Shown here piece after piece: positions 14,458 to 57,645 of a stretch of 64,000 nt of DNA (position 1 is the first letter of the stretch; each line of letters starts with the position of its first letter). Made by a program: the position numbers and the translations under genes. Below the pieces are notes generated by a model. The model worked only from the letters and a program-made list of their open reading frames with translations, did not search any database and was not told where the DNA came from. Origin of the DNA: Spinacia oleracea (lineage: Eukaryota; Streptophyta; Magnoliopsida; Caryophyllales; Amaranthaceae); contig NC_079491.1 in NCBI RefSeq assembly GCF_020520425.1, forward strand, positions 5,257,143 to 5,321,142, given 5' to 3'.

Positions 14458-17400
14458 CTAATGGCGTACAGAGCATTGAGACTGAGCTGCAACTCTTTTC
14501 TGGTCAGCCAACTTTCCTTCCACTTGATGCAGTTTACCAAGCAGCCTGTATCTCTCTACTTGAAGCTCCATCACTATATCACCCGGTTCCTTGCTTTTGT
14601 AACGAGACAAAGCCTTCTCGACAATTGGAACCAACCAATCTAATCTGAATTGCATTGATTGAAGATCAACTAGTGTGGAGGTTAGATATTCAGCCTGGGA
14701 TTCATTCAATGGAGACTTCCCCTTTCCTTTGCCCATGTTGTTTTGAAGTATAATCATCATCTTTGCCAACGATTCTAATGCCCATGTAAGAAGGCCATTA
14801 CTTCGGACTGCATGATCTTCAAAAAAATCATGCATCTTCCATATCTTCCTCAAATATGGGAAAAAATCTGACCTTACATCCACTCCTTGGAATTTCTTCA
14901 TCGAAGAGTTTTCTGAAATCTGCACAGGAATTAACATCCAGAAATTCATGTAAACAAGCAGAAGACAAGCCTGGGTAGGTGTATTATCATCAATGTTCCT
15001 TAAACTTGAATGTTTTGGACTTTCATAAGCAACACAGGTATGTTCAAGTAAAGATGGTTGTGGCCCGGGCCGGCCCGAAGCCCGACCCAACACGAAAAAA
15101 GCCAGAAGCCTAACCCAGCACGAAAAAGCCCGACTCGGCCCGAACACGAAAAAGGCACGGGCACGAAGCCGTGGGCCTTAATTTTTTGGAAAAAGCACGA
15201 CAAGGCACCGCACGACTCGACCCGGCACGACAAAGCACGCTAAATTTAGTAAATTTAGGCACGACGGCCGTCCCGATAGCATGTGGGCTTGTTCCGGGTT
15301 TGGGCCCTGTTTTGAACACTTCAGGCCGGCCCGATACAATGTGGGTCTGCCGTGGGCTCGGCCCGAAACCCGACCCAACACATGCCATCTGAACAGTTCA
15401 ACTGGCCGGTGTATTGTCTGACTCGGCTATTTTATAAAAATATCATGCTTTGGTCCAAAAGAAAGTGTCAAGTTGTACATACCTATGACACTATGCAGGA
15501 TATAATATGTATAGTTTAGGTGAAATGATGAGCAGAGTAACATAGCTAATCATACAAGCATAAGAACTTTGAGAATCAATGCTGATCAATTTACCTCAAG
15601 AGGAGCTCTAGTGGCAGGAAATAAGTCAATACAATCTTCATCGCTCTCACAAATGAACTCTGAAACAATATCGATCCAAGAAATTAGGGCAACCAACTTG
15701 ATTTTTAGGGGTTAGGGGGAAATGAATTTCAACATGAAAGGTGCAGGTAAGGTTTTTTTTACCGTCTGCTGCTATTTCCTCATCTTCCGAACTGGTTTCA
15801 GTTTGGCTAGAGGAATCAATAAGCTCATCTTCCTCTTCACTGACACCGATTTGATTAAGTTAGCTTTTGCAGTGTTCAGTGTTCTACAGTTCTACTATGT
15901 GCTCAAACAACTTTAAAAGATAGTGAATTGGAAATTCATGATTACTCCATACATCCCAAATATATCAGAAAAGCCAAATGTGTACATATTAAACAGTGAT
16001 TGACGGCTCTAACGATACATCAGTAACACATCTCAGAGGATCAGGTGAAAGTGTGTGCCTGAAGTAGAAGTTTATACAAAATTTGATAAGAGATAGATCA
16101 ATCTATCTCAAAAACCAAGAACTTTTACTTATAATTGTTAAGTTTAAACAGCAACACGTTATGTAATGGTCGATAAACGTTGTTAATTGCAATCTTATAT
16201 GACAACTCCTAAACTTCTCTTACGTGCATGCTAATTGCAAGCATTCCCTCCATAGTTCAGGACCACTACCTTGCCAGCTATTTTCTTCCAAATAGTAGTC
16301 ATCAATTCAAAAGATAAAAATAAACCTTGGTAGCATTACAAATTTACAACTATTAAAGGGTTGAATGATAGCCGTAAAGATGCAAAGAATGGGTAGAAAA
16401 TTCCTGTACATTCTTCGATATTCTTTCATGAACTTTTTTAAGTCACATCTTTCATACTCTTCCTATGTGGTCAGCTTAATTCTCAAAAGAGGGAAAGTTT
16501 TATTGCACAACTACTCACAACCATTTTTCCTCAAAAGAAAAGATGGTCAAATTCGAATATTGTTATATTAGATGGAAATTCCTTAGAATGATTAGCAGTT
16601 GGCTAAGATTCAGTCACAAGGTCCCCCAACCAAACTTAAACAGTTAACCATAAAACCAGTCAAGCATTCATTTAAAAATGACAGAATAATTACATATTAA
16701 GAGATTGAAAAGTATAAAATATTACCAGGGGTAGGGGTATGAATCAGGGCAGAGCCAAGAAGGAGGGGGCCAGAACAACTCTGAGAGGCTTGGGTATCTT
16801 ACAACGATTCTCGTCCAAGTAAAACACACCAATCGTAAAGTGACGTCTTTGTCCTTCAAAAAGTTCATAGTCAGGATCATATCCTCCAGAATACAGAGGA
16901 AAACAATTCTTAGGGAACACAATACAATTCCCTCTGCACCCTGGAAAATCTTTTGCTTCAGCAAAGAAGCAGCTGTCAAAACTGATGAATAAAATCCTAT
17001 CTCCTAAATGATTCACCTTGTTCCACCGCCTTTCATTCAACTGGTAAACCCGAAATTCCAAATGATTTCTAACAACCATGTACAGTACTCCAAATGATTC
17101 AACCAGCAGCTTACGCCGTTTCTCTGCATATAGGTAACCAAATCGCTCTGAGATAGTATCGATAATCCTCATATTATAACCATCATTAATGTCAATGAGG
17201 TAGGCTATTCCTTCAGAGTCTAACGCACAAATATATCCCTTGAATTTTATTATATCATCAAACTGATAGTTCTTCTTTGAGTTGATATGACCCTGTTGGC
17301 TAGTCTTTAAAATTAAAGAAACCAAAGAACCTCCTTGACTAACGAACAAAACGACTGGTACACAATCATAAATGGAGGTTGCAGTTTCAGAGAGCAATAT

Positions 17401-17979
17401 CACTTTGTTTGGAGCAGGATAATCTGACCAAGCCGTTGAGAACTCGTGATCATTAAAAACATCTTCATTACCATCAGAGAAACAAATTTTAAACCCGTGA
17501 CTGAGTTTTGACACCTGAAAATCAGAGATATTCAAGGATTTTGGGAAAGTTACTGGCAGATTCCTGAAAGGGAATTTACTGAGGGGATGACAGATTTGGA
17601 GCTTGCCAGTGTTCAAGTCTTCAACTGAGATCAACCAGGGTTTTGAGGACTTGGAGATTGTTTGGTTAAGGGGTCGCAGAAGATAGGTTATTCTAGCCAC
17701 AAGAAAGGTAGAGCGATCAGAGTTTTCGAACCTGAAGGAACCAGTTCGGACTTGATGAGGCAATTGAGAATATAAGAGAGGGACAGAGAGAAGGCAAGAA
17801 GAATGCCATTTCTTGCAAACTGAACGAAATCTGCAGTAATCCAAACGGGATGCTAGGCGATCAGCAATCACTTTTAGCAATTCCTTGGGGAGCTCCGACC
17901 AGTCTCTGTCTAGTTTTGAATCATCACAATTCTCTAGAACAAAATTTGACACTTCAGTAACAGAGAAGACAAATTTCAT
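14458..17979 (-). CDS. F-box/DUF295 gene A with spliced C-terminal helical tail
   Basis: Exon 1 (17979 to about 16726) encodes an F-box (about residues 27-65, DWSELPKELLKVIADRL, FRSVCKKWHSSC) and a DUF295/KIB1-4 type propeller-like region with the family's late motifs (RGNCIVFPKNCFP, IGVFYLDEN). F-box proteins are substrate receptors of SCF ubiquitin ligases. Near 16807 the frame slips: as read the protein ends at 16744 (411 residues, LAPSFLALP), while the family C-terminus (PSLSELFWPPPSW) lies in the next frame before a GTAATA donor. Downstream exons seen are an acidic Ser/Glu exon (about 15755-15860), about 15594-15660 (EFICESDEDCIDLF) and 14919-14458, a helical domain (KKFQGVDVRSDFF, LLTWALESLAKMMIILQ, FRLDWLVPIVEKAL). 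Whether the slip is real, an error, or makes a short F-box-only product is not decided by this sequence. Confidence 0.6.
15058..15385. repeat. GGCCCG/GGCACGA-rich degenerate repeat inside gene A
   Basis: A GC-rich island of short variants (CGGCCCGAAGCCCGACCC, GGCACGACAAGGCAC) interrupts otherwise AT-rich intronic sequence of gene A. It is the same style as the islands at 33655-33960, 47233-48112 and 53395-53690. It gives overlapping open frames on both strands purely from composition; none is called as a gene. Confidence 0.65.
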
Positions 17980-17999
17980 CCCAGAAACAAGAAAAATAT

Positions 18000-18670
18000 A
18001 TTAAGAAAAAAAGGATTCCCTATTGAGATTGATCATCTTTTTGGTTAGAGTAGTCCTTTTGTTGCTCATCTTCTTCAGAAACCCTAGTCAGAAAGGCATG
18101 GAACACGTTATAGTTTGTTTAAAGCACTTTCCTTGGAAGCTATTGACTATCATACATGCTCAAGCTACTTCAACTGTGTAACTTAGACCGAGTTGATTAT
18201 TCCATGCATGCCAAGTGACAAACTCATTAAAGATTGGAGCATCATATCATACCATCAATAAAAGCAATGTTCATAAATCATACTACACACTTTAATACTA
18301 TAGTGTGAATGGAGGAACATTAGCATCTCAAACAGGATTTAGGCAGAGGTTAATAGTTGAATTCATCACCAAATCATGACAACTATCAAACAAACTTAGC
18401 TCGTGAAATGATCTGCAATTTCTTGTTGTAACTTATAAGTTAGACCTCATGGACTATTCCCATGTTAACAATATCGAATCCAGAGCTAACATTGACAAAA
18501 TCCTATGACAATCCTGAAATTCAATTTGTATTAACAAATAAGTAATTCAAACAAGGTTCCAATGATTGGAATTGATCGACTAGTAGTAGTTAGCATCACA
18601 AACTCATTGAATATGAAAAATCTACACTAGTGAATTTGGAACAATCATCAGAAGGTTAAAGGCTAAGAAT
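18000..18670. other. Intergenic stretch between F-box genes A and B
   Basis: AT-rich sequence with no recognisable helical-tail exon, so gene B, unlike genes A, C, D and E, has no visible tail domain downstream. No repeat or RNA gene recognised. Confidence 0.5.
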
Positions 18671-18673
18671 CAT

Positions 18674-19904
18674 TACCATGTAAAAGAGCCTGAGTTCGGC
18701 CAAAACCATGAAGGGGGTGGCCAGAACATATCAGACAAACCCGGGTAAGATGAAACCAGTCGAGAACAATCCTCATCCAGGTAGAACACACCAACCTCAA
18801 GGTACTTGCTTGCTCCTTTGAACAATTCATCATCAGGGTGGTATCCATCACCATAATTAGGAAAACAATTTTTGGGGAAAAAAATGCAATTCCCTCTACA
18901 TCCTACAAAATCACTTGCTTCCACAAAATAGCACCCATCAAAGTCACAAATAAAATTCTATCTTCCAAACTATTTACCTCATCCCACTTTTGCTGTCTTT
19001 CATTCAACTTATAAACCCGGAACTTGTAACACTCTCTAACAATCATGTACAACTTCCCATTAGATTCCACCAATAGCTTACGCCTATCACTAGCATCACC
19101 GGCACAAACAGGCTGGGTTATGGCGGTCATCACCCTCGATTCACGGCCATCAATAACATAAACTACTCCTTTACGATCCATAGCACAAACTTTCCCCTTG
19201 AAATTTACAATGTCGTCGAAATGAACACCATTGTTATTACTCATGTAACGCCACTCTCCTAGTCTTATAACACCCAATACTCCCCCGAGATCAAGCATCA
19301 ATACCACAAATGAATAATCATAAATACCCGACAATTCACTCTCATTAAACAAAACCACTTTAGTTTTAGTGGGAAAATTACTCCAATTACGAAACCCCTG
19401 ATCAAAATGCCTGTTATCAAGAAGATCCTCATTGCCATTTGAGAAGCAAAATTTAAAACCCTTCCCAATAAGCGAAACACGAAAATGCAACGAGTTCAAC
19501 GATTTGGGAATTTCCTTTGGAAGATTTTCAATAGGGGTTTTAGTAAGAGGGTGACGAAATTTTAACAAACCTGGGTTTAATTCTTCAAGACAAACAACCC
19601 AGAATTTTGGGGGATTTTCGGGTATTTGATTGAGAGGTTGAATTAGATAAACAACGCTGCCAACCAAGAACTTAAGACGATTTTCACAACCCAATAATGA
19701 TCTGGACCGGTAATCACAAGTTGGGATTTGAAGAGGGAGAGTGGGAAATAAGAGGTGGGATGTAATGCGGCAAGAAGAACGCCAACTCCTGCACACTGAT
19801 CGGAATTTGCAGAGGTTTAATTGGCAGTCGATGTGATCCACGATTTCGGCAAGTAGTTCTTCGTCTTCGGCGAGATGCGACCAATTTTCCATCCGCCACC
19901 GCAT
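18674..19904 (-). pseudogene. F-box/DUF295 gene B, one frameshift, no tail domain
   Basis: The first 320 or so residues read openly from MRWRMENWSHL (19904): F-box (about residues 12-50, FRSVCRSWRSSC) and DUF295 region (VIDGRESRVM, SDRRKLLVESNGKLYMIV). At about 18935 a single base appears missing in ACTTT-GATGGG: the frame runs into ILWKQVIL and stops at 18903, while the continuation CRGNCIFFPKNCFP to PPPSWFWPNSGSFTW is open in the next frame to a TAA at 18674. A second candidate start is MENWSHL. It is the tandem neighbour of gene A and closely similar in plan. One indel could be a sequencing error; if real the product loses the last quarter of the DUF295 region. Confidence 0.7.
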
Positions 19905-20042
19905 TTTTCTCTCCTACTGGGAAGATTAGGGTGGGAAATCAAAGGTTTTTGAGCTTTTTCTAGGGTTTTGGCTAATTTTTTCGATTTCGGAAATGAAGAA
20001 GGTTCATCTACTGTAGACTGTAGTAAACTAGTAAACCGTCAC

Positions 20043-20052
20043 TTTTGCCGCC
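20043..20052 (-). promoter_or_regulatory. E2F-like site upstream of F-box gene B
   Basis: TTTTGCCGCC fits the plant E2F consensus TTTSSCGC and lies about 140 bases upstream of the start of gene B. Related sites sit at a like distance before genes C, D and E. Confidence 0.4.
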
Positions 20053-20098
20053 ATCTGACCTTATTTTGATTCGATCAGAGAAAAAATCTAATCTAATA

Positions 20099-20357
20099 CT
20101 TCCTCCATCTTTTAATACCCGTAACGTTTGAACTTTTGCCACTATTCATATAATCTACTTAGACTATCTGTAGTGTTTTTTATATAAGATAAAACATAGT
20201 CATGTGAGATCTTGTTAGATTCGTCTCAATGTGTATTTTCAAAATATCAACTTTTTATATTTTTTGCATAAAGAGAATTTAAGATATAAATGATCAAAGT
20301 TGTGCATTGGCATGCGTGAAACTAACAAACGTTGCGAGTATTAAAAGACGAATGAAG
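20099..20357. mobile_element. Stowaway-like MITE with TA duplication
   Basis: Left end CTTCCTCCATCTTTTAATAC and right end GTATTAAAAGACGAATGAAG are inverted copies flanked by TA. The interior shares GATCTTGTTAGATTCGTCTC with the MITEs at 630-888 and 27479-27733. Confidence 0.8.
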
Positions 20358-20367
20358 TATCTATCTA

Positions 20368-20686
20368 CTTCCTCCGTATTTATTTAAGAGATACACTTGC
20401 CTTTTCCGGCCGTATTTATTTAAGAGATACACTTACTATTTTTAGTAACTTATCAACCATACCATCTAATTAAATAATACATTTAATTTACCCTATGACC
20501 CACCATCCTATTAAACAATTAATTTCATAAACCCACCTCCCACCCACCAAAATGACATGGTCCCCACTTGTTTAATTATTAAAATATCTACCCAATCCCA
20601 CTTGCTTTATTAATTTATTTCATTTAATCCCTCTTCTTAATACCCGTGCCCGGCCAAGTGTATCTCTTAAATAAATACGGAGGGAG
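20368..20686. mobile_element. MITE with ATTTATTTAAGAGATACACT inverted repeats
   Basis: The left arm CTTCCTCCGTATTTATTTAA continues AGAGATACACTTG, is locally repeated, and is matched by AAGTGTATCTCTTAAATAAA followed by TACGGAGGGAG on the right. A TA precedes the left end. It stands 10 bases from the previous MITE, so the two form a tandem cluster. Confidence 0.75.
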
Positions 20687-20904
20687 CGAGTATTACTATA
20701 TACTAAAACATACACCAGGAATGACACGTGTCAATTCCTGGTGCGATTTTTTCCCGCCAAAAGACACTTTCCTAAAAAAAATATCTGTTTTATTTTATTT
20801 TTATTCTCTACCTTTTTTTTTTTAAAACTATTTATGTATGAAAACAAAATTTAGTTTATAAATAAAAGACAATAATAGATACAACATAATAATAATTACC
20901 CAAA

Positions 20905-21705
20905 TTCTTATATGAGACTGTCCTCACCATCAACTGATGGTGAGACCAGTTCACACTTGCGAATTTAGGTATGTTACTTCTATAGTTTAGACATGTTACT
21001 TTTTTTTTAATAATTTTAGAGGAGATACTTTTTTTAGTTTAGGTATGTTACTTCTATAGTTTATACATGTTACTTTTTTTATACGGAGTAGTTTTAGGGG
21101 AGATACCTTCTTAGTTTAGGTATGTTACTTCTATAGTTTGGACATGTTACTTTTTTTTATATAATTTTAGACGAAGTACTTTTTTTAGTTTAGGTATGTT
21201 ACTTCTATAGTTTATACATGTTACTTTTTTTATACGGAGTAGTTTTAGGGGAGATACCTTCTTAGTTTAGGTATGTTACTTCTATAGTTTAGACATGTTA
21301 CTTTTTTTTAATAATTTTAGAGGAGGTTTTTTTTTAGTTTAGGTATGTTACTTCTATAGTTTAGACATGTTACTTTTTTTATAATTTTAGATGAGGTACT
21401 CTTTTAGTTTAGGTATGTTACTTCTATAGTTTAGACATGTTACTTTTTTTTAATACGGAATAGTTTTAGGGGAGGTACATTTTTAGTTTAGGTATGTTAC
21501 TTCTATAGTTTAGACATGTTACTTTTTTTTTTTTTTTTTTAATAATTTTAGAGGAGGTACTTTTTTAGTTTAGGTATGTTACTTCTATAGTTTAGATCTG
21601 TTACTTTTTTTATAGTTTTGGGGGAGGTACGCTATTGGTTTCGCGTTCGTCACACCATCAAGTTGATGGTGTGACTGGTCTCACAGGAGACGCGCTGTAA
21701 TAATT
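20905..21705. repeat. Element with hairpin ends enclosing a nine-unit minisatellite
   Basis: Both ends carry a small hairpin (CACCATCAACTGATGGTG on the left, CACCATCAAGTTGATGGTG on the right) next to GAGACCAGT or its complement ACTGGTCTC, so the whole unit is an inverted-repeat element. Between them the phrase TTAGGTATGTTACTTCTATAG recurs about nine times at intervals of about 68-77 bases (first near 20966, last near 21570), alternating with GTTTAGACATGTTACTTTTT. Two units carry TACGGAGTA (21082-21090, 21233-21241). No coding potential. Confidence 0.8.
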
Positions 21706-21861
21706 ATTCTAAATTGGTAATCTTTTAGTCAAATCTCTATATTAGTAATGGAAAGCATATCACTCAATATTTTAGTCAAATTACCACATTAGCATTTTAA
21801 ATATGCATATTAGATGAATAAATTTAAACGAGTGTGTTAAAAATGTTATAACTATGCAGTA

Positions 21862-22169
21862 CACTACAAAATTATGCATCAATTAGAGATGGATTTTGAG
21901 ACGTATACAACAAACGTCTCAAAATTGAGACATATTACTAAATTTCGTCTCTAAATTAAATTTGAGATGGAATTGTATAAGGAGTTTCAAAAATTCCGTC
22001 TCAAATTTGTAATGGATTTGCAAGAATTCCGTCTCAAATTATTTTGAGACGCTCTCTATAGAGACGCCCTACTTTCGTCTCAAATCCGTCTCTAAGCATC
22101 ATTTTGAGACGGATTTGGATTATATAGAGACAAAATTACTCGTCTCTATAAAATGATTATTTTGTAGTG
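21862..22169. mobile_element. Non-autonomous CACTA element
   Basis: It starts CACTACAAAATTA and ends ATTTTGTAGTG, with a 3-base GTA duplication on both sides, as in CACTA (En/Spm) transposons. The interior is made of several inverted variants of TTTGAGACGGATTT and CGTCTCAAAT, giving strong potential to fold. Length is 308 bases with no coding. Confidence 0.85.
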
Positions 22170-22207
22170 GTAGTTTGGGAGCTATTAAAATATTTTACAA
22201 ATGGAGA

Positions 22208-22396
22208 AACTTTTGTGTGAAACCGCCTCACAGGAAAGACCGCCTTATTGGCAGCTTTGTTGACAGCCTCGTGGCGCGCGCTGACGTCATCGTTTTTCAA
22301 TTTTTTTTCAACATTTTTTTTTAAGCTAATGTCACTAACCACGTGGCCGTGGCTTGATTACCATCAAGGCGGTCTTTCCGATAAGATCGCATTACC
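22208..22396. mobile_element. Small foldback/MITE with GGAAAGACCGCCTT arms
   Basis: GGAAAGACCGCCTT on the left is answered by AAGGCGGTCTTTCC on the right, and the flanking bases continue the imperfect complementarity (GTGAAACCGCCTCA against GATCGCATTAC). No clear target duplication was found. The class is unknown. Confidence 0.6.
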
Positions 22397-22436
22397 TAAA
22401 AGTTTGTATAACAAATGATAATCCCAAGAAAATATT

Positions 22437-24700
<2,264 letters not shown>

Positions 24701-25647: not shown

Positions 25648-27177
25648 ATGGGTTCGAATTCACGAGTAAACGACATTGATGATATTGAGGTTGTCGAGAG
25701 AGACCCGACAGGACGTTACGTAAGGTACGATGAGATCTTAGGAGAAGAAGGTGCCATTAAAACAGTTTACAAAGGGTTTGATGAAGTTAACGGTATAGAA
25801 ATTGCTTGGACTAAAATCGAGATATCAGAAAAAATATTAAAGTTACAAGAACAGTTTCAGAGTGTGTGTTCAGAAGTCGATCGTTTGAAATCTTTGAAGC
25901 ATGAAAACATCATGAGGTATTATCATTCATGGGTCGATAACGACGACGAGAAGAAGATGACCGTTAATATAGTTACTGAACTCTCAACCTCTGGGAATAT
26001 GAGTCAGTACCGCAAGAAACACAATCTTATTGATAAAAAGGCGATCAAGAATTGGGCTAGACAGATTTTAAAAGGGCTTCATTATCTTCATTCTCATAAT
26101 CCTCCAATTATTCATCGAGGTCTCAACTGTGATAGCATCTTTGTTAATGGGTATTCGGGTAAGGTTAAAATTGGAGATCTTGGACTTTCGACGATGCTTC
26201 AACAAGTCGAAACGGGTCGGGCTGTTGGTGAATCACCCGCATTCATGGCACCGGAGCTTTTTGGTGAAGATCATAATCAGTTGGTGGATATTTATTCTTT
26301 TGGGATGTGTTTGTTGCAGATGGTTACCCGGGTTTTACCGTATAGTGAATGCAGTAACCAGGGTCAGATTTATGAGAAGGTTGTGTCGGGTATTAAGCCT
26401 GATGTTCTTAGCAAAGTAACCGACCCGGTTGTGAAGGAGTTCATTGAGAAGTGTTTGGGTCCTGCTTCAACAAGACCCTCAGCAATGGAACTCTTGAATG
26501 ACCCGTTTCTTGCACCGAGTGATTCTGGATCGTCTCCAAGATCTGAATGTGTGAGTTCATTGCTTTCTAGAACATCTAGTCATGTGGCTAGCTCACCTAC
26601 ACCTGCTGCTTCTGAGGAATCATTAAAGGGGATGATTATTGAAAATAAGTTCAAGTTACAAGGGAAGATGGAGGATAGTGAGTCAATATCCATGAACTTA
26701 CGGATTAATGGTAAAAGGATTAAATTTATGTACTTTGTTAAAACAGATACAAGTGAGTCTGTTGTAGAAGAGATGGTGGATAAACTCGAGTTGACAGCAG
26801 AAGATGCAGAAGTTATTACAGTGCTAATTGAAGACTTGGTTAGGGAACTTGTACCTGTTGTTAGTAATAGTTGCAGTCTTGCAGACTCAGAAAATTCTGA
26901 CAAGATATCTTCATCATATTCACCATGGACTGATGTCAGTTCACAACACAGTATGACTGCAGAATCTGTCAGTGTTAAAAACCAGGATACCAAACTAGTA
27001 TACTCAAATGGTGGAATTAATCATACAAGTATGAATGGCTTTTCTTCTTCAACACAGCAAGAGAAGCAAGTTACAGAAGATATTAGAAGAGGTGACAGAA
27101 AATGCAGTGTAAAGGTAGCAAAGGTACCATCTAGGTCCTTGAGAAAGCTGTTGTGTTTTTGTGGGAACAGATTCTAG
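25648..27177 (+). CDS. WNK-like pseudokinase, copy 1, intronless
   Basis: This 509-residue protein has a protein kinase fold of the plant WNK type (about residues 24-288) and a C-terminal region with an OSR1/WNK autoinhibitory-type segment (about 340-410, MNLRINGKRIKFMYFV, DAEVITVLIEDLVREL). WNK features: the ATP-binding Lys in the Gly-rich strand (K38 in IKTVYKGFD), IAWTKI in strand 3, and DLG (177-179) for DFG. The catalytic loop, however, reads HRGLNCDS (156-163) where active WNKs have HRDLKCDN: the catalytic Asp, the Lys and the Mg-binding Asn are all changed, and the activation loop GTPEF is ESPAF. The protein should bind partners, perhaps nucleotide, but not phosphorylate. Plant WNK genes as known have several introns; this one has none. 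Start is MGSNSRVNDIDD, shared with copy 2. Confidence 0.9.
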   Translation: MGSNSRVNDIDDIEVVERDPTGRYVRYDEILGEEGAIKTVYKGFDEVNGIEIAWTKIEISEKILKLQEQFQSVCSEVDRLKSLKHENIMRYYHSWVDNDDEKKMTVNIVTELSTSGNMSQYRKKHNLIDKKAIKNWARQILKGLHYLHSHNPPIIHRGLNCDSIFVNGYSGKVKIGDLGLSTMLQQVETGRAVGESPAFMAPELFGEDHNQLVDIYSFGMCLLQMVTRVLPYSECSNQGQIYEKVVSGIKPDVLSKVTDPVVKEFIEKCLGPASTRPSAMELLNDPFLAPSDSGSSPRSECVSSLLSRTSSHVASSPTPAASEESLKGMIIENKFKLQGKMEDSESISMNLRINGKRIKFMYFVKTDTSESVVEEMVDKLELTAEDAEVITVLIEDLVRELVPVVSNSCSLADSENSDKISSSYSPWTDVSSQHSMTAESVSVKNQDTKLVYSNGGINHTSMNGFSSSTQQEKQVTEDIRRGDRKCSVKVAKVPSRSLRKLLCFCGNRF

Positions 27178-29165: not shown

Positions 29166-32100
29166 ATGAATCGCGAGACGTCGAGAAAGAAGCTTGCACT
29201 GGTGGATTGGTCGGAGCTCCCGAAAGAATTGCTGGAAAAAATCTCCGGCGGGCTTATCGGACTTTCCGGCCCCGATTACTTAACATTCCGAAAAGTTTGC
29301 AGAAAATGGCGTGATTCTTGCCCTCCTCCGACCAACCTCTTTTTTCCTGGTTTCCCTCTCGAAATTCCAACTTACTTAGGTCGAGAGGTAGTTCTATTTC
29401 CGAGCTTCATCTACGTTCTTAGACTCCCTCTGCACAAATGCAATCCCACCACCACTAGTTGGATTGTCCAAGTCGACGAGTTCAATCCTGGTAAGCTCCA
29501 AGTTCGCAATCCTGTTACTAATAATCGCCTCTATGTTGATAATTTCCCCGAAACCCTAAATTTCAATGATTACTCATCGCTGCCCTATGCAATTAGTTAC
29601 AATCTCCGTCTCTCTACCGGTAACGATGATGTTTTTGATTCCCGATGTTACCCTTGGCGGGATTATCCGGTAAAGACCAAATCCATTTTATTAGAATGTG
29701 GTATGGTGGTAGTGTTGTCGCTTGGTCAAGTAGGGATGTTAGGAATTTTGAAGGTTAATGGGGATTGGAAGTTCACAGATTTTGGCTATAATGGGCGCTT
29801 CGACGATATTGAGGTGTTCAAGGAGCATATTTGTGTGTTAACTCGTTTTGGGAAATCTTTCCTTATTAATGGTGCTGATGGGAAATTGATTAGCTTGATA
29901 AGTAAACCGCTTTCAAAGAGTTATGTTGGTGATAGGCGCAAACTTTTGACTGCATATGGTGACGATTTGTACATGATTGCTCGAGGGGAATGCGAATTTA
30001 AGGTGTTTAAGTTGAATGGAAAGTTGCAACAGTGGGAAAGAGTAAATAGTTTGGGAGATAAGATATTGTTTGTGTCTTATGATAAGTGTTTCTTACTTGA
30101 TGCGGATTATCTACCAGTATTTGAAAGGAATTGTATTCTGTTCCCTAAGAATTGTTTTCCTAATAATTCTGGAGATTACTCTGTTGATGGGGAATTGTTT
30201 CAAGGAGCAACTCGGCACCTGGAGATTGGTGTGTTCTTTTTGGGTCAGAAATTTTGTCAGCCAATATCATCTTACCCGCGATTGTCTAAATTGTTTTGGC
30301 CAATTCCTTCTTGGATCATGTCAGATTCGTGCTCATCATTGGGGTAAAATCTCAGTGTCGTTTATTGCGTTAAAATTGCAAACTTATCTCTGTGCATCCA
30401 TGATAATTTGCTGAGTTGCTAACTTGCTATTCATTTTCGTAGTTTAAGTTTAGTAGTTATCTTATGATTGTTACATGCCGAATTTGCTGTGAAATTTTCA
30501 CCAATTTGTATATGTCTGAGGGAGTGAGAGGCTATTAATTGTGTGAACAACAATAGTGATGGAATACATAGTAAATTATCATTTGATAACAAGTGATCTT
30601 GGCAACATAGTGGTTATTAAGTGTTGTATATTTGAACTGCTGATATATGTTCACCTTGCCACTTGCACATCTTTTTGGAGCTTCTTGTGTTTGGACTCAT
30701 ACATATATATGGAAAGTCTATTTTGTATTAAACCTTCTGTTGTTATGGTAGTATGATGAGAATTCTATTTATGTTCTTTTGTTATGCATATCATACATAT
30801 TATGTTCTGATACAAGCCATATATTCTAGCTTAAGCTATACTACTCCCTCCATTCCTAAATGATCTTCCTATTTGGTGTTTGGGGTGGAAAATAAGAAAA
30901 TAGAATCTTGTAATGATTGGGTGTAAGAGTAATGATTGGGTGTAAGAGAAAATAATAAATAAATGAAGAAAAGTAATAAAGAAATGAAGGAGAGAGAAGA
31001 TATTTTTATTAAAGTAATAAAAAATCATAAAAGTGGGGTTGGATGGGTGAATGGGGAAATGTGAATGAATTAAATAAGGGATGGTGGGGAAATTTATGGT
31101 AAAAAGGCATGTCCAAAAATAGAAACAGGAAGATCAAATAGGAACGACATTTATAGAAACAGGAAGATCAAAAAGGAATGGAGGGAGTATTATTTAATAG
31201 CTTTTGAAGCAAAAATGCTAAATCTCTTACATCTCCCGCCATTTCGAATAGCTCAGATAGGTTTTCCGAGGAGGATGAAGAAATGGAAACCTCTAGCTAT
31301 AGTGGTTCAGAATCTAGCTTAAAGGAACAAAGTTCAAATGCTGTTTCGCATCATGGAAAGAACATACACCCTTCATCCTCAGACCAAATAGACACATTTC
31401 TAGAAGGTTATGTATCGGTTTGACTCGTATACAAGAGGGTTTTGGAACTTCCTTTTTTCCTCTCTTTTTACCCCTTACTTAACATTTAAGAATATAATTT
31501 CTTTAGCTCATAATTGCTGGATTTTTTTGCAGACGTCTCAAGTGAGAATAATGGTACATCAATTCCAGCTATAGATTCTCCTCTCCAGGTACTTGAAACT
31601 TGAAAGGCATCATTATGCTGGTAGGCGGTAACTAGACTGCTTTCTCCTATGAGTACCTTGCAGGAAACTAGCATAATGTTTTCAACCTTCTCAAGCAAAC
31701 TTTCTGAAAGTAGTGCTTTGGAGAAGAATTTCCTAGAAACAAATTTCATCTTTATGCATAAAGGTATGTTCTACAAATAACAAGTAAAGTACTTAGCTCG
31801 GTTTTCTGTGCTATCATGCAGATTACTCAGGATAACTCTTTACTAGAGAAATTCCAAGGGGCAGATGTGAGCTCCAATTTAGTCCCAGTTCGCAGTAATG
31901 ACCTTCTGACGTGGGCCTTGGAATCACTTGCAAAGATGGTAATTATTCTTCAAAAAAATACCGGGGAGTCCTTGGATGACTCCCAAGCTGAGTACCTGAA
32001 GTTGTCCCTGGTTGATCTTCAAACGCTGCATTTCAGATTAGATTGGATGGTTCCCTTTGTCGAAAGGGCTTTGGCAATTCACAAAAGCAAGTGTCAGAAA

Positions 32101-32250
32101 ATTATTGTGACAGACCTTGAGAAAAGAAAGTCCAAGCTCCTTGCAGAATTACATGAACTAGAACAAATGGAAAAGACTCTGGCTGGTAGCTTAATAATAT
32201 CCACTGCACCACCAATCTTAAAGAAAGGCTTAGCTGAAGGACTTTTCTGA
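29166..32250 (+). CDS. F-box/DUF295 gene C with spliced C-terminal helical tail
   Basis: Exon 1 (29166 to about 30345) is open and whole: F-box (about residues 16-55, DWSELPKELLEKISGGL, FRKVCRKWRDSC) and DUF295 region (GDRRKLLTAYGDDLYMIARG, RNCILFPKNCFP, EIGVFFLGQ) ending SWIMSDSCSSLG at a GTAAAA donor or TAA. Downstream exons are an acidic Ser/Glu exon (about 31230-31409, FSEEDEEMETSSYSGSESS), a short one ending at CTCCAG (about 31533-31587), possibly about 31663-31763, and the helical tail 31822-32250 (LLEKFQGADVSS, LLTWALESLAKMVIILQ, FRLDWMVPFVERAL, KSKLLAELHELEQ). The tail lacks the 18 or so residues KIWDKYGNIIEGHVV present in D and E. A MITE (30844-31187) sits in intron 1. If intron 1 is retained the product is a 393-residue F-box protein. 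Confidence 0.75.
30844..31187. mobile_element. Stowaway-like MITE in intron 1 of gene C
   Basis: Left end CTCCCTCCATTCCTAAATGA, right end AAAAAGGAATGGAGGGAG, TA on both sides. The right arm GAAACAGGAAGATCAAA is locally duplicated (near 31121 and 31156). Confidence 0.85.
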
Positions 32251-48112: not shown

Positions 48113-48120
48113 AACTACTA

Positions 48121-49165: not shown

Positions 49166-49579
49166 TCCTAAGGTTTCATGACATGATATTGTCGTTAAGT
49201 GACGGTTAGAAACTTTCATTTTTTCACCATATGTCAATTTGGTATAGTTAAGCAACGACTAGTTTTTCAAAAAAAACTAATTCTTAGCCAATATTTCTAT
49301 TACTTTTGAAGGTACAATTAGTGTTTTGACATTCAACGAATACTAACAATGAGGTTGATCCAACGTGGTGATCCCAGCTGATATATATTAGGTTGAGTGA
49401 CTATTTTGGGTTTAGATGTAACATGATGGGATGAAGGGGAAAGGAGGAAAAGGGGAATAAAAACTAAGGGTTTTAATAGTGCCATGAAAAGTAAAAAATC
49501 ACTCATGAATTTAATTGAGAAAGTGGTTTGATTTCCTGGTTGGCTTAGGATAATGAGAACGATTGAGAATATTAAATAG

Positions 49580-49682
49580 TTATAGAAATTAAAATTGTAC
49601 CAGATATTTTTATTTCTAATTTATAGAAATTAAAATTGTACCAGATATTTTTATTTCTAATTTATAGAAATTAAAATTGGAC
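49580..49682 (+). repeat. Three-copy 42-base tandem repeat
   Basis: ATAGAAATTAAAATTGTACC followed by AGATATTTTTATTTCTAATT recurs, the third copy truncated (ATTGGACCAG). Confidence 0.85.
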
Positions 49683-50370
49683 CAGAAACTAAATACCAAA
49701 GAAACGGGGAAGATATTTTTATTTCTTGATCTAATTGAAATTTGACTTATTTTCTATCCAATACAAAGTTATACTTGTATATGCTCTTAGCATGTTGACA
49801 CACCTGAAGATTAGACATGATTGCTAAAGACAATTTAGAATCAGATCTTTAATCCATCAACTAAACTCTGATTCTATGATTGAAAATGTTTCTTCAGCTG
49901 AAAGTAAAACAGGTTTCTCGTCGCATCCTTACATAACCCCAAATCGAGATCAGATCATGACCATTCCTCTTACTGAACCACCATCTTCGAATATGTACAT
50001 CTGCAAAATTTGTCAACGCATAATACAGATCAATTCATAAGCAAATGGGGGCTATTGAGAATATAGAGGATTACGAATAACATAAGGTTAGATTGATCTG
50101 TTCGTGAATCTTGCCACCAAATTGCTACAAATAGTTCAAAAGATTATGTTGCTATTGAAATAAATATACCATATGAAGATTTATAAAAGTATGCTGAAAG
50201 ACCTACATATTCATCAAAAATAAATCTCACAAAATTTTGTTTTATTTTGATGGAAAAAAGAATCTCAAAAGATTCAGTTCAAGGCTAAATAACCATTGCA
50301 CCTCATGCCGTAAAGAAAATAAAGACATCTGAAATAATCAGAGAGAAATAACTAAATAAGCATGATGAAT
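49683..50370. other. Intergenic stretch with no supported gene
   Basis: AT-rich sequence; no domain, RNA gene or transposon end recognised. Confidence 0.5.
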
Positions 50371-50374
50371 CCTC

Positions 50375-50497
50375 TGTATTGGCCCATTTCAGAAGGGAAT
50401 TACTATGAACTACATGCTCTTCGATTATGTTCCCATGTTTATCCAATATTTTCTGCAAAACTGGGACCAAATCGGAGCTGACATCTATTACAAACTT
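50375..50497 (-). pseudogene. Orphan fragment of the helical tail domain
   Basis: On the minus strand this reads VIDVSSDLVPVLQKILDKHG, then NIIEEHVVHSNSLLKWA, clearly the start of the tail domain seen in D and E (VSSELVPVLKKIWDKYGNII). Nothing of the rest of the domain or of an F-box is next to it. It lies 340 bases beyond the end of gene D and is most simply a leftover of a further tandem copy. Confidence 0.75.
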
Positions 50498-50838
50498 AGT
50501 ACAAGTCTTTACATAAAGGGCATGCCCAAAAACTTACTTGCCCTACCATATACATACCGCCTATTAAGACTATTTGCAAACCCAAAATAACAAAATAACC
50601 AAAAGCAGCAACTAGCTTAACACATGTAAACCTAAAATCCATCGAATGCTAGTGCGAACTAACTCCCTGCTGCTGCTACTACTCCTCATCTCCTGATATC
50701 AAACTTCCACTGTCAGAGACTCATGGATTTAAACATCAGTTTTGAAAAAGGCAACTAAAAGCATACAACAAAATATTGCTAAGAAAACAAAACAATACAA
50801 TACAAAGTAGACTCTCCATATAGTCCTTCAACCAATCA

Positions 50839-52910
50839 CTAGTCCAAGATCAGTAGAGGTGAGTCAATTTCACCATAAGCTGCAATCATGTTCTGCTCAA
50901 TCAATATTTTTTCTTCAACTTCACGCAATTCTGCTACGAGCTTGGACCTTGTTGCTTCTAGCTTCGTGATCGTATCAATCTTCTCTCTAATTTGTAGAGA
51001 TTTAGAAGCTTTAGCAACAATAGGAACAAGCCATTCAACTCTGAAATTCAAGGTCTGAAGGTCGGCTAGAGTGGACTGCAGGTTTTCAACTTGGGATGAA
51101 TTCAGGGTCTTCTGTGTGTTTTGTTGAAGAATGATGATCATCTTTGCTAGTTCCTCCAAGGCACATTTCAAAAGTACGTCACTGCGAATGGCATGCCCTT
51201 CAATTATATTCCCATATTTATCCCAAAGTTTTTGCAAAACCTGTATCAAATCAGGGCTAGTTGCTTGGAACTTCTCAACTGAAGCACCTTTCTCATTACC
51301 AATCTGCATAGTATACCAAAAAAACAAAAAAAAAGGTTGCCTTAGAAAATTTCTGCATGCAAGTATATGTAAAACTTGATGGAAGAAGTGATTACCATTG
51401 GATTTAAGTCCAAATCAATTATATTCTGACAGAAAGTGGGCGGTACCAAGTTAGACTTGATATGTGTTCCTCCAGATTTCTTTGTTGCACTGTTAAAGAT
51501 GTTAATATTTTAGTTCAAGCTAATTTAACATAGTAACATAACTCAAAGGCATTATGTCAGATGAAGATAAGTAGGTTATGCATGCCAAAAATGTAAAGGA
51601 ATTAGAACATACAAAGATAAAAGTCGATATGTAAATTATCAATAAAGTAATCCAATTTTTTACCATGTGGGGGAGGTTGAATCAGTGAAGAGCCACGAAG
51701 GAGGCGTAAACAATACAGATAAGTACGGGTAAGTTGATAAATGCTGAGAGCAATCTTGATCTAAATAGAACACACCAATCTCGAGATTCCTGCTTGCTCC
51801 TTTAAACAAATCATTATCAGCAGAAGAATAACAAGGAAAACTGTTGGTGGGGAACAGGATGCAATTCCCTTTACCTTCACATCCTGGAAACTCTTTAGCA
51901 TCAAACATAAAAGACCTGATATTGCTTATAAACAATATGGAATCTCCCAATGTTACTCTCTCCCACCTATGATTCACCTCATCCAACTCAAAAACCCGGA
52001 ATTTCTGAATTTCTCTAACAATCATGTGCAACTTGTTATCAAAACTCATCAAGAGTTTCCGGCAGTCACTAGCATAGATAAGACAAAGCGGCTTAGATAT
52101 CGTTTCAATCACCCTCGATTCAGGACCATTGATAAGGTAAGTTCTTCCTTGACGATCAATAGCACAAATATTGCCCTTAAAATACACCATGTCATCAAAC
52201 AAAATATCCGGGCCATAATCTACAAACTTCCATTCACCATTGAACTTCAAGGACCCCAATTTTCCTCCTTGATCAAGCAACAACACCATAATACCCACCC
52301 AACCGGTGTAATTCTCTGAATATTCATCAGAACTTTCCATTCCACTTCCTAAAATATCAGCCTCATCATCAACACCCAAAAAGGGGAGAACTTTAGTCTT
52401 AACAGGATGATTACTCCAAAATGAGAGACCATTGGAATTGAATACATTCTGATCACCGTTGGCGAAGCAGATGTTTGTTGAATAAAAAGGATAATCAAGT
52501 TGAAAATCGAACAAGTTAATAGAGGTGGAGATATTGTGGAAGGGAATACCGGTGATGGGATGTAGAAGGCGAAGCTTACCAGGAGTGAGCTCCTCAACAA
52601 AGACAAAGAAAGATTTGGAGGAATCGTGAAGGGGTTGAATAAGACAGAATTCTCCATACATTAGGAATACAGGGTGAGTCGAACTCTTAAAAACTGGGGA
52701 ATGCGTAGGGATTTTGAGGGGCAGATTGTAATATAAAAGGCAGTCTGGGGGATCAGAAGAAGAACGCCAGTTCTTGCAAACTGCTCGAAATCTAGAATGA
52801 TCGTACCCGTAGTCAAGGTAATAGATAATTCTTGAAAGCGCTTGTTCAGGGAGATTGGACCAATCCACCTTCCACCGCTTTATCTTAACATTTCCCTTTC
52901 TCTCTCCCAT
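50839..52910 (-). CDS. F-box/DUF295 gene D with helical tail, intact when spliced
   Basis: Three exons join in frame: 52910-51664 (GTAAAA donor after ACATG), 51489-51396 (AACAG acceptor, GTAATC donor) and 51303-50839 (TATGCAG acceptor). The sum is 1806 bases, a 601-residue protein. F-box about residues 13-55 (VDWSNLPEQALSRIIYYL, FRAVCKNWRSS); DUF295 region to about 405 (YASDCRKLLMSFDNKLHMIV, GNCILFPTNSFP, LEIGVFYLDQDC); linker ATKKSGGTHIKSNLVPP; helical tail about 450-601 (VEKFQATSPDLIQVLQKLWD, ALEELAKMIIILQQNT, FRVEWLVPIVAKA, KLVAELREVEEKI). The tail is reminiscent of the C-terminal region of plant MATH coiled-coil and PEARLI-4-like proteins, from memory. Without splicing the F-box exon ends at TAA giving 416 residues. 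It has no acidic exon as in A, C and E. An SCF substrate receptor with an oligomerising or partner-binding tail is the inferred role. Confidence 0.8.
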
Positions 52911-52992
52911 TCTGAATTTCAGTTATTACTGTAGACTGTAGAGTTTAAGAAGGTTGTACATTAACGCCTATAAATAGAACGAGGTAGTTTAC

Positions 52993-53001
52993 TTTGGCGC
53001 C
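52993..53001 (-). promoter_or_regulatory. E2F-like site upstream of F-box gene D
   Basis: TTTGGCGCC, inside CTTTGGCGCCATTTTTCA, lies 83 bases before the start codon. The same 17-base phrase TTTGGCGCCATTTTTCA stands before gene E. Confidence 0.5.
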
Positions 53002-53009
53002 ATTTTTCA

Positions 53010-54834
53010 AACGATGTTAAATGGATACAAACAGTCAATATGCAGTTAAAAAAAGCAAAAAAAGAGTAACATTTAATGGTAATAGGAACTAGTGTAATCA
53101 TAGCTCGTAATACTACAACAGTAGAACATCATTAATGTAGCTCCACTACTTCAAGTTCCTAAGCACTTAAAAACCATGAATCAAGATAATTGTTACAGTA
53201 TTTAAATAAACTCTTCGCATACCACATCATGGTGGAATTCTAAGAGTTTTTATCAGTTCCAAAAAAAATTGATTACAAATATATCAATGTCTTTTGTTTT
53301 CGTTAAAAATAACTAGGACACCGTAGTTAGCATCTTTGCATTGCTTAATGGGCTATTTGTTCTCATAAAAAGGAGTAGCAAGTTGGTGTTGGTTAGAATT
53401 GGGCTTGGACCAAGCTGACACGAGGCCATATGAGGACTGGCCCGGCCATCATGTTGCCAAATTACTTTTTAACCTTTCAACAAAAGTATTTAAAATACTA
53501 GGGTGGTTGCTAGCAAGTCACGACATAGCCCGACACAAAATGAGGGACGGGTCATAGATGAGGCTCATTTCTGGAATACACCCACGAGCCCTGAATGGCA
53601 CAACTTTTTCTTGACATGTTCCAAGAGCGGGCTGTTGGGGGCACAAGGGACGTGGGCCTGAACAGCCCATCACATGCCGGGTTCTAGTGTTGGTGTCATC
53701 GTATAAGCATGTTGGAGCTCAAAAGTCCAACCCCGAGAAATTCAAAACATTAGTAGTTATGGTTCTTTACACAGCTACCTAAAGATCCCAACATATTAGG
53801 TATGGGCCTTATGGCCCTTAATTAGGGTCACAATCCCAAAAGTAAAATTCATACTTACAAGTTACAAATACTGGTGCCCAAATTGATTCCCAACTCAAAA
53901 AGTTTTTTTGTTAGCTTTAAAACAAAACCTGGCCAACAATTAAGTAAAATTTATCATTAACGATCAGTACTGTCTATCCTTATCCCCACCCCTCATCCAA
54001 CATTCAGTCAGGGCTGTCACCACCACCGCACCAGTGTCTCCCCACCTCCACCAAAGTCCAAACCCCCCCTCTTCTGTCATCAACAGTTAATAGAAACACC
54101 GACATCGATATCCCCTAGGTATAGGTGCCAAAGTGGTGATTAAAGAGAAGGGTATTCCGGTCTTCACAATCACTTTATTTTATACCTCGACTTTAGTCTT
54201 CACTACATTTGAAAAGTTACCCTTTATAGTTGGATTATTATGAGAAGAGTAAATTTTTCCTTAAAAAATAAACTCTCAAGATTGAGATCACAAAAGACCA
54301 AGTCATAGTGTCTACTGTCTAGTGTCATATTGTTTTGTTCAGATGTATCATATTCATCACCATATAAATTAGTGCAAGTGTGCAACCTATAAGTGCAAGT
54401 ATCTTACTTATTTATATAGTGATGACTATTAATAAGTGCAAATGTGCAAATGTGCAACGTACATTGAAGCTGTAATACCAATACATACCAAAGCAAAAAC
54501 ATCTGAGACAATCAGAGACAAAAAATCATGCTCATCCAAACACCTATACAGTTAGTTTATGTCATTGCAAAACTCCCTGCCATATCAACTAACGAGACTT
54601 TAAAGAGCTTTAGACAAGCCGGTTGATATGATATAACAATTGTTGAAAGACAGAATTTAACAGGAAAGATAACTTAAGACAACATAACATTAAGTCACTG
54701 TGTTTGAAGGGAAATCAAGTTAACAACAGAAGGAATCTAAGTTTTGTCCAAAAGAAAATTGAGGAAGGGATGGAAGAAAAGTACCATGAAGCAGTTAGGT
54801 TGACAACTCAACATAGTCCTTCAGCTAAGCCCTT
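53010..54834. other. Intergenic stretch between F-box genes D and E
   Basis: Contains a GGCC-rich degenerate island (about 53395-53690, of the style at 15058) and a run of AAGTGCAA-type repeats near 54375-54460. No supported gene. Confidence 0.5.
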
Positions 54835-57645
54835 CTACGTAATTGATGGTGTGGATTTTATTAGGCTCTCAGCAACAAGCTTTTTTTGCTGAACCATTTG
54901 GTGTTGTAGTTCACTCAACTCTGCGAGGAGCTTTGATTTCTTTATCTCAAGGTCCACCATAACATCTTTCTGGCACTTGCTTTTGTGAAATGCCAAAGGC
55001 TTTTTCAACAAAAGGAACTAGCCACTCTAATCTGAAATGCATCAGTTGAAGATCAACTAAGGTGGAGTTCAGGTACTCAGCTTGGGAGTTGTTCAAGGAA
55101 TCCCCTGTAATTTTTTGAAGAATAATTATTATATTTGCAAGCGACTCCAAAGCCCATGTCAGAAGCCCATTACTACGGACTACATGACCTTCGATTATGT
55201 TCCCGTACTTATCCCATATTTTCTTCAAAACTGGGACCAATTCTGAGCTGACATCTACCCCTTGGAATTTCTCTAGTGAAGTACAATCCTGAGCTAGCTG
55301 CATAAATAACAGAGATCCTGAATCCGGTTCCTTACTAGAAAGAATTACTGTTAAAAGGATATATATCAACACTGAAAAAAAAAGAACCTGAACTGCAGAA
55401 GTGTTAGGAGGAAGTGAATCATTAACTAGCTTTGGGCTTGGGATATGTGGTACCAAATCCAAGCTGACACCAAGTCCTTGTACATACTTCTCTGTATCAC
55501 CTTTTGCAAAAGACTGTATGAGAAAATAAAAGTGTTACGCTAGTTTCCTTCAAAGCACGCATAGGAGAAAGTAGGACAACAAACGGGTCTTTCAAATATA
55601 CCTGACAGATAGAGAGTTTAGCAGGAACTGAAATATCCTTATACTCACATACGACCTCTGAGAAAATATCCAAGTTTTCAGTATGAAATAAAGCAATCAT
55701 ACCCTTAGATTAGGGAAGGGATACAAAAATGAAGTTCCAAAAGCCGCCTCTGTGAATTCAATACTTAAATATGGACAAGTCTATAACCTTCTACGGTTGT
55801 CTCCTTCTGTCCTGATGTTGAAGGAGGATTCTTGTCACCTTGTCTGTTCTCACTGTGATTTGAAAAAGTAGAGGAACAAAGCTCCTCTGAACTGGACTCT
55901 GAACCCATATCATCAGTAGAATCAATATCTTCATCTTCATCTTCCTCAGAAGAGCTAATCGAGTCAGAAAATAGTTAGCACTATTGATTCAAAAGTCGGT
56001 AAATCATATTACAGCTTATGCACTAGTTAATCAGAACAACTCAAGTTGTATATGACATGAATGCCAACAGGGAAAAAAAATAAAGAGAACTCGGCGATCA
56101 TGCTATCTGAAAAGCACAATGTTTTAAGTACGAAACCATATGTGTACCGCCAAACCCAAGTCAACAAGATTCAGTTAGCATGCAAGTTGCAAGGCGAAAA
56201 GATCAGCAGCAGAAATATAACACTCACTATGCTAACATGAATACATGATTAGTTTGTTCCTGAAAGTTAATAATCAGTATGTAATTGTGGTTCACTTGAT
56301 ATAAAACTTTCAGACCTATATAACTCATGATACTATTGTTGTGAGTCTGGAAAAGAATTACCTTGCCAACTCCTAAACTATTAACCATGTACAAATTAGT
56401 ATTGAGCAAAATTTCATGAATGTACTTAGTCAATTAGACTATCAAACTTTTTGAGAGATAACAAGATTTTACCATAAATCAGAGGTGAGCCACAGAGGAG
56501 GCGGCCAAAACATAGACGAAAACTCCCTGGAAGAGGATTCCAGCGCACAACAATCTTTATCCATATAGAACACACCAATCTCCAGATTATCTTGTGTTCC
56601 TTTAAACAAATCATCATCAACAGAATTATTTCCAACTTCAGATGGAAAACAATTCTTAGGAAACACTATGCAATTCCCATTAAAATTATCCAGAAAATAA
56701 TCAGTGGTAACAAAGAAGCACTTATCATAAGTCACAAACAATATCTTTTTCCCCAAATCATAAACTCTTTCCCACTCACGCAACTCTTCATTCATCTTAT
56801 AAACCAAAAACTTGTTACTTTTTCTCGCAATCATGTACACTCCTCATCAAATACAACCAAAAACTTGCGCCTATCACCTACAACACTCTTTGGAAGCGAT
56901 TTGCATAGCTCTTGAATCGCCATTCCATCAACCAGATTGATGAGCAAAACTTGTCCTCATGGTTAACAGAACAAATATGGTCCTTAAACCTCTCAATATC
57001 GTCAAGCTTAACACGAGGACACATTTCGGCAAACTTCCATTCCCCATTGAACCTCAGAAACCCTAAAGTCCCTCCTTGATCAAGCGACAGAACAGCCACC
57101 AACTCAGGGCTAAAAATTATGGATTTTGTCTTAACAGGGTAATTTGGCCAAGGTGTGATCGCATCAGACGAAAATACATCTTCGTCCCCATTTGCACGAT
57201 ACAGTCTAAACCCAGAATCAATAACCAGCGACCAAAAATTATGAAATAAACTTAGGGGAAAATCAAATTCCTTGGAATCAAAATGTTTATTAGTTAAAGG
57301 ATGACGAATTTTGAGCTTACCCGGGTTTAATTCTTCAACAATGACTAACCAAGGTTTATGAACAGCAGGTTTGTAAATTCGACCAATGGGATAAAGAAGA
57401 CAGGTTCCAGTTGCAATTAGAGATATAGAACGACCTGATTGCGTCGGTAATTTGCGAGGAAAACATGAAAGAAGAAAGTGGGTTGAAGGAGAAGAAGAAT
57501 TACGCCATTTTCTGCAAACTCATCGGAATCTCCGGTAATCGGCACCGTAAAATCTTAGGTCATGGGCGATTCTTCTCATTGCTTCTTCCGGCAGATTTGA
57601 CCAGTCCGCCGTCCTCCGCTGCTTTTTGCGCTCCGGCTGTTTCAT
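54835..57645 (-). pseudogene. F-box/DUF295 gene E with helical tail, broken
   Basis: The F-box exon (57645 to about 56462) starts MKQPERKKQRRTADWSNLPE. There is a TGA in the F-box where paralogues have FR-S-VCRKW (about 57525), and at least two frame slips in the DUF295 part between about 56840 and 56960. The exon's end is open (RNSVDDDLFKGTQDN-like, IGVFYMDKDC, FWPPPLW). Downstream exons remain readable: acidic (about 55790-55960, SSSEEDEDEDIDSTDD), 55388-55500 (LDLVPHIPSPKLVNDSL) and the tail 55297-54835 (SLEKFQGVDVSSELVPVL, LLTWALESLANIIIILQ, FRLEWLVPFVEKA), which carries one more extra base near 54998. Four or more lesions make a dead gene likely. It keeps the family promoter site. Confidence 0.75.

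Follow-up and report, generated by a model that had tools for sequence, protein, structure and literature searches.

In plants, F-box receptors are usually portrayed as an F-box joined to one recognition module. In the F-box/DUF295 proteins, such as KIB1, SKIP23, and AMR1, the F-box is followed by a PF03478 propeller within one exon, an arrangement shared by the genes that we describe here. KIB1 directs the degradation of BIN2, according to the available part of PMC9335153. The second relevant group is the MATH-PEARLI-4 class, in which RTM3 has been placed (PMC12238093). In the accessible portions of the sources, RTM3 is described as a MATH domain with a C-terminal coiled coil that interacts with itself and binds RTM1, both domains being involved in resistance (PMC3377653), and as a protein that restricts the long-distance movement of potyviruses (PMC12238093, PMC3377653). 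In this study, we analyzed a 64,000-nucleotide window of the Spinacia oleracea genome (contig C5:5257143-5321142; genome searched, 894 Mb in 242 contigs), which lies in an array of genes whose first exon encodes an F-box and a KIB1-4 propeller and in which a PEARLI-4 tail exon often follows. It is very likely that each such gene encodes one polypeptide from a fused F-box/KIB1-4 plus PEARLI-4 gene structure.

An earlier note on this window had reported five loci (A to E) with an F-box/DUF295 exon, which in A, C, D, and E is followed by a tail exon on the same strand, and both observations hold. PF03478 (KIB1-4, the former DUF295) is matched in A, B, C, and D with E-values of 3.8e-28, 1.1e-22, 1.4e-22, and 1.8e-19, respectively. 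The corresponding scores (70.7 to 99.1 bits) exceed the curated cut-off of 27.4, as does that of the 3' piece of E, which alone was scanned (E-value 1.7e-9, 38.0 bits). The F-box model PF00646 is above its cut-off of 20.5 bits in D (25.9 bits). As for the tail, the note had proposed a profile search and had named PEARLI-4 among the families to compare, and PEARLI-4 (PF05278; cut-off, 29.9 bits) is indeed what the search returned, with 42.0 bits for D and scores below the cut-off for E (29.7), C (23.5), and A (15.7). The four tails have 32 invariant columns in common. Genome wide, PF05278 gave 41 matches, 25 of which lie in the C5 array or in a pair on contig C6 (22 of these 25 above the cut-off), the other 16 being six further genes and a set of ten dispersed copies that are almost identical. 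The tails of A and C were not among the matches listed in this search, whose control gave a match, itself under the cut-off, in 1 of 14 genomes. The exons of the five loci are as follows (window positions).

16726..17979, minus strand: A exon 1, F-box and KIB1-4 propeller; homologous phase-2 donor TG|GTAATA at 16726/16725
15763..15839, minus strand: A exon 2, acidic linker exon, phase 2 to 1; read by eye, AG/GT confirmed
15595..15659, minus strand: A exon 3, short exon, phase 1 to 0
14458..14919, minus strand: A tail exon, PEARLI-4 (E-value 0.012, under the Pfam cut-off)
18673..19904, minus strand: B exon 1, frameshifted F-box and KIB1-4 propeller; donor TG|GTAATG retained
29166..30343, plus strand: C exon 1, F-box and KIB1-4 propeller; donor GG|GTAAAA, phase 2
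31252..31406, plus strand: C exon 2, acidic linker exon, phase 2 to 1; read by eye, AG/GT confirmed
31533..31588, plus strand: C exon 3, short exon, phase 1 to 0
31822..32250, plus strand: C tail exon, PEARLI-4 (E-value 4.9e-5, under the cut-off), without the IWDKYGNII segment and ending in LAEGLF
51664..52910, minus strand: D exon 1, F-box (above the Pfam cut-off) and KIB1-4 propeller; donor TG|GTAAAA, phase 2
51396..51489, minus strand: D exon 2, non-acidic, phase 2 to 0; homologous to exon 2a of P16, donor different
50839..51303, minus strand: D tail exon, PEARLI-4 (E-value 1.1e-10, above the Pfam cut-off)
50381..50479, minus strand: partial second tail exon downstream of D
56473..57645, minus strand: E exon 1, broken F-box/propeller exon; donor TG|GTAAAA retained
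55788..55954, minus strand: E exon 2, acidic linker exon, phase 2 to 1; read by eye, AG/GT confirmed
55602..55657, minus strand: E exon 3, short exon, phase 1 to 0
55388..55513, minus strand: E cassette exon, phase 0 at both ends, similar to the 5' portion of the tail exon
54947..55297, minus strand: E tail exon, PEARLI-4 (E-value 6.3e-7, slightly below the cut-off), with a frameshift near its end

Only C and D are fully open in the window (605 and 601 amino acids, respectively), and the members that we treated as intact are C, D, P16, and P19. The three exons of D (52910-51664, 51489-51396, and 51303-50839) join into 601 open codons and a stop, as the note had stated. Its view that such a join is unlikely by chance is a weak argument for D alone, and it is the family-wide evidence below that makes the case. 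Likewise, the exons given for D stand, but the acidic and short exons of A, C, and E had been overlooked; with them, the four exons of C also join, into 605 open codons. An alternative acceptor of C exon 2 at 31210 leaves the phase unchanged. D is itself atypical in that it is without an acidic exon and its tail stops eight residues short of the end of its nearest paralogue, P16 (C5:5329386-5331700). P16 carries two or three repeated phase-0 cassettes that, like the single one of E, resemble the 5' part of the tail exon. In A, a frameshift close to the 3' end of exon 1 places the stop of the open reading frame at 16744 and the homologous donor in a different frame. For B, no tail of its own was found, and A starts ~0.7 kb downstream of it. 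E has a stop in the F-box and frameshifts in the propeller and the tail; judged by these lesions, it is a pseudogene.

The family had been called local, which is too narrow, because the array extends over ~0.9 Mb of contig C5, with one further pair on C6. A genome search with the D tail gave 34 matches, 32 on C5 (4.67 to 5.60 Mb) and 2 on C6. From a search with PF03478, in which 150 candidates were scored, 39 matches in the C5 stretch were used for a pairing test. Pairing of exon 1 with the tail exceeds chance: 23 of the 32 C5 tails have a PF03478 match at most 5 kb upstream on the same strand (in one case the tail is the second, partial one downstream of D, and the exon 1 is that of D), compared with a mean of 2.9 and a maximum of 10 upon random placement (5,000 runs) and a mean of 3.9 and a maximum of 11 under circular shifts (1,988 shifts). 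Upstream DNA that was fetched subsequently added two pairs, O1 and O2, raising the count to 25 of 32. Two C5 pairs, at 4.68 Mb (P1) and 4.695 Mb, have the same scores, so a recent duplication is probably part of the count. Of the two C6 matches, the tail at 137.85 Mb is paired; the other match, to a further PEARLI-4 gene, is weak and has no PF03478 match listed just upstream.

The splice signals point in the same direction. We read the end of exon 1 in 23 tail-bearing loci (by eye in P7, P8, P9, P13, and P18; the 4.695 Mb pair and the L102 pair are outside this set) and found a phase-2 GT donor in 21, a GC in O2, and an unclear end in P9. O2 (C5 ~4757.6 kb), the copy nearest P4, carries GC for GT in an otherwise good donor context. 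At the other side, 17 of 22 loci have a phase-0 pyrimidine-AG acceptor ahead of the tail. Candidate exons between exon 1 and the tail were ranked by a script on acidity and splice score, and the top acidic candidate proved to be a phase 2 to 1 exon in 10 of 21 loci (P19, P14, P11, P5, P4, P3, P1, P13, P8, and P18). The reverse-complement control yielded 0 of 20, with the highest net acidity dropping from 55 to 4. When P9 (second-ranked) and C, A, and E are added, the last three by eye (A and E having been missed by the script), such an exon is present in 14 of the 21 loci, weakly so in P8, P9, and P18. For P6 the candidate is of phase 2 to 0, and P17 has a strongly acidic one of unsettled phase; D and P16 have none, and P7, P10, and P12 have none that is clear. 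The candidate linker exons of P3 (C5 4.70 Mb) and P17 (5.58 Mb) contain very long tracts of Asp or Glu codons, which are perhaps unstable in length.

Exon 1 and the tail also diverge together, beyond chance. Over 14 genes (91 pairs), their protein identities correlate with an r of 0.47 (Mantel p 0.0002; Spearman 0.22, p 0.03). Both ends appear to be under constraint: by the NG86 method, nonsynonymous (dN) and synonymous (dS) divergence between D and P16 is 0.19 and 0.38 in exon 1 and 0.19 and 0.41 in the tail, and among the 14 closest pairs listed, tail dN/dS could be computed for 12 and ranges from 0.19 to 0.49. The exon-1 tree comprised 15 of the 23 tail-bearing loci (E, P3, P7, P8, P12, P13, P18, and O1 were left out); for the divergence test and the tail tree, O2 was left out too, giving 14 loci, with A used only up to its lesion. 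Five of eight distant PF03478 loci were included (L003, L006, and L007 were left out), and L093 was left out as short. In the exon-1 tree, the 27 cluster rows are separated from the 5 distant PF03478 genes with a support of 100/100, and the presence of a tail requires at least seven changes, fewer than in 492 of 500 shuffles. In the tail tree, the 14 tails form one clade apart from the 8 other PEARLI-4 rows, namely, the other PEARLI-4 genes of the same genome (L049-L054) and two dispersed-repeat copies (support, 100/99). Twelve cluster members had been fetched as tail-less, six of which end in a plain stop (L091, L092, L093, L096, L098, and L100) and five in a donor-like sequence (L095, L097, L099, L101, and L102), while L094 ends early and looks broken. 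L102 was labeled tail-less in the tree despite a weak tail match 2.7 kb away; for the other members, tail-lessness means no match nearby in the D-tail and PF05278 searches. A single fusion followed by duplication with repeated loss of the tail fits these trees best. Taken together, pairing, splice phases, co-divergence, and constraint at both ends strongly support the putative spliced F-box/DUF295 plus tail architecture that the earlier note had suggested.

Several observations weigh against this interpretation. PF00646 scores slightly below the cut-off in A (20.2), B (19.6), and C (19.7). Among the candidates listed, no phase-0 acceptor was found for P7, P11, and P18, and in P12 and P13 the locus is broken there. 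No PF03478 exon lies within ~5 kb upstream of O3 and O4 or within ~7.7 kb upstream of P15, and for the four remaining unpaired tails (4684787, 4794551, 4907667, and 4741001) the upstream DNA was only partly examined. The donor of D exon 2 differs from the one that P16 would use, and that exon (31 codons) shows a dN of 0.20 over a dS of 0.12 between the two genes, so that no constraint is seen there. With YN00, the D/P16 ratios indicate weaker constraint (0.54 for exon 1 and 0.70 for the tail), and the exon-1 dN/dS of 0.29 to 0.50 in the 14 closest pairs listed is rough because dS exceeds 1 in 13 of them. The changes in tail presence on the tree mean that the tail was often lost or moved. Finally, the structure model of the tail, all helical with a long last helix, is poor (mean predicted local distance difference test [pLDDT] score of 49.9), which leaves oligomerization without structural support here; searching the solved structures with the tail sequence returned just two matches (E-values of 0.16 and 0.86) and no resembling structure.

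Could the array consist of two co-duplicated families with separate promoters, namely, F-box/DUF295 genes without introns and PEARLI-4 genes downstream of them? The plain stop without a donor in 6 of the 12 members fetched as tail-less and the tails of O3, O4, and P15 without a nearby exon 1 would agree with this. Two separate families would, however, leave unexplained why 21 of the 23 tail-bearing loci have a phase-2 GT donor, eight of them without any stop at that site, why a phase-0 acceptor is present in 17 of 22, and why acidic exons of matching phase, for which the reverse-strand control was clean, lie in between. We consider this explanation highly improbable. The tail read as a stand-alone gene is similarly disfavored by the conserved phase-2 donor and phase-0 acceptor. 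The earlier note had further pointed out that exon 1 ends at a site that is both donor and stop and had proposed a two-product switch, in which retention of the intron at the GTAA site yields a regulated F-box-only protein. The double nature of the site is true of the homologous position in A to E but not of the family. An in-frame stop spans the donor in 13 of the 21 GT donors (D, P16, C, E, A, P14, P13, P11, P8, P5, P4, P1, and P10, with A counted only in the frame that its relatives use), whereas the other eight (P19, P12, P17, P18, P7, P6, P3, and O1) and the GC donor are without it. Hence, across the family the donor is retained and the stop is not. Moreover, the stop is automatic, because a phase-2 intron starting with GTAA or GTGA always reads NNG TAA/TGA, and retained introns usually introduce a stop in any gene. 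The switch is accordingly not supported, and we deem it exceedingly improbable.

Two further alternatives were considered. The genes may belong to a mostly decaying birth-and-death F-box array with few functional members, in which the fusion has little biological role. The stops or frameshifts in A, B, E, P12, and P13, the orphan tails, the repeated loss of the tail, and the second exon of D and P16 with no visible constraint are all in keeping with decay. Yet no stop interrupts the 14 exon-1/tail sets (of 23 loci; A up to its lesion), and the tail dN/dS values given above in 12 of 14 pairs also count against it; on balance, a mostly decaying array seems unlikely to us. The tail could be a module for viral defense or immunity as in RTM3, which would make the array a rapidly evolving cluster of defense receptors. 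This reasoning by analogy draws on the MATH-PEARLI-4 membership of RTM3 and its reported restriction of potyvirus movement, as well as on the size, clustering, and broken copies of the array. Clustering and decay are, however, common in plant F-box families generally, and we regard a defense role of this kind as rather improbable.

Returning to the fused gene structure, the polypeptide would run from an N-terminal F-box through the KIB1-4 propeller and, often, an acidic linker rich in Ser, Asp, and Glu to a C-terminal PEARLI-4 domain that is predicted to be helical. Conceivably, the F-box binds SKP1 and thereby places the protein in an SKP1-cullin-F-box (SCF) ubiquitin ligase, the propeller selects the substrate as in the F-box protein KIB1, and the acidic linker acts as a flexible tether. 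By analogy with what has been suggested for the C-terminal coiled coil of RTM3, the PEARLI-4 tail may bind to itself or to a docking partner and so render the receptor multivalent or localize it, a role that we put forward tentatively and hold as somewhat short of probable. Relatives in the cluster that are tail-less might then represent losses that leave an ordinary F-box/DUF295 receptor. One could go further and view PEARLI-4 as a portable C-terminal oligomerization or docking module that plants attached on at least two occasions to recognition domains rich in beta structure (MATH in RTM3 and F-box/KIB1-4 in the present genes); the outcome would be a novel class of SCF receptors that associate with themselves and that multiplied as a defense array in this lineage, but this generalization we consider doubtful. 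If the genes are fused, at least about two dozen clustered receptors would tie SCF ligases to an RTM3-type domain, which raises the testable question of whether the tail makes the ligase multivalent or localizes it. Since gene models that end at the exon-1 TAA would miss the tail, it will be worthwhile to re-inspect the annotation of clusters of this kind.

Two other features of the window and one repeat family deserve mention. Positions 23442-24569 hold ~54 copies of a 21-base unit, with a partly open frame of Cys-Ser-Lys-Phe repeats; the Pfam matches to this array are probably low-complexity artifacts. Inside the F-box array, at 25648-27177, lies an open protein kinase gene with an OSR1_C-like piece slightly below the Pfam cut-off, which we take to be WNK-like. 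Elsewhere in the genome, the ten PEARLI-4 copies L039-L048 (contigs C1, C2, C3, C5, and C6) form a dispersed repeat, nine copies being 98 to 99.9% identical to L040 over 2 to 3.6 kb. Their PEARLI-4 frame of 296 to 301 amino acids is open in nine of ten and interrupted by a TAG in L045, and tandem repeats follow it in L040. This looks like a mobile element carrying a PEARLI-4 gene. PEARLI4 has also been described on the extrachromosomal replicon of Palmer amaranth, in the accessible text of PMC9473621.

How, then, do these genes relate to what has been described? We did not find the F-box/DUF295 plus PEARLI-4 architecture among the papers listed by searches of the open-access literature, with subscription papers, protein databases, and plant gene models outside the search, and predicted proteins of this kind may therefore already sit in public annotation. 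The available part of PMC7583174 mentions no such tail, and PMC3030570, which surveys plant F-box modules, does not contain "pearli" in its main text. Ordinary F-box/DUF295 proteins end in a plain stop, as do the six cluster members mentioned above among those fetched as tail-less. In contrast, the genes described here continue from a conserved exon-1 donor into further exons and to PEARLI-4. With the other PEARLI-4 genes of the same genome (L049-L054), the array tails share the Pfam domain and a KHGDI-like motif. The former end in DGL(L/Y) in five of six cases, and a motif like LGEGL-, of the form (E/G/V/A)G(L/I/V)-, closes 10 of 22 array tails (C, P16, P18, P11, P9, P8, P6, P5, P4, and P1), so that those tails appear to reach the natural end of the domain. 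The closest parallel in plan is the MATH-PEARLI-4 class typified by RTM3, which likewise combines an N-terminal beta-rich recognition domain with a C-terminal PEARLI-4/coiled coil (PMC12238093, PMC3377653, and PMC3664471, as far as their available text goes). Pfam finds no MATH domain in exon 1 of A to D, and the genes are thus alike in plan only and not members of the RTM3 class. In the spinach array, the recognition part consists instead of an F-box and a KIB1-4 propeller, connected to PEARLI-4 in many copies by an acidic linker.

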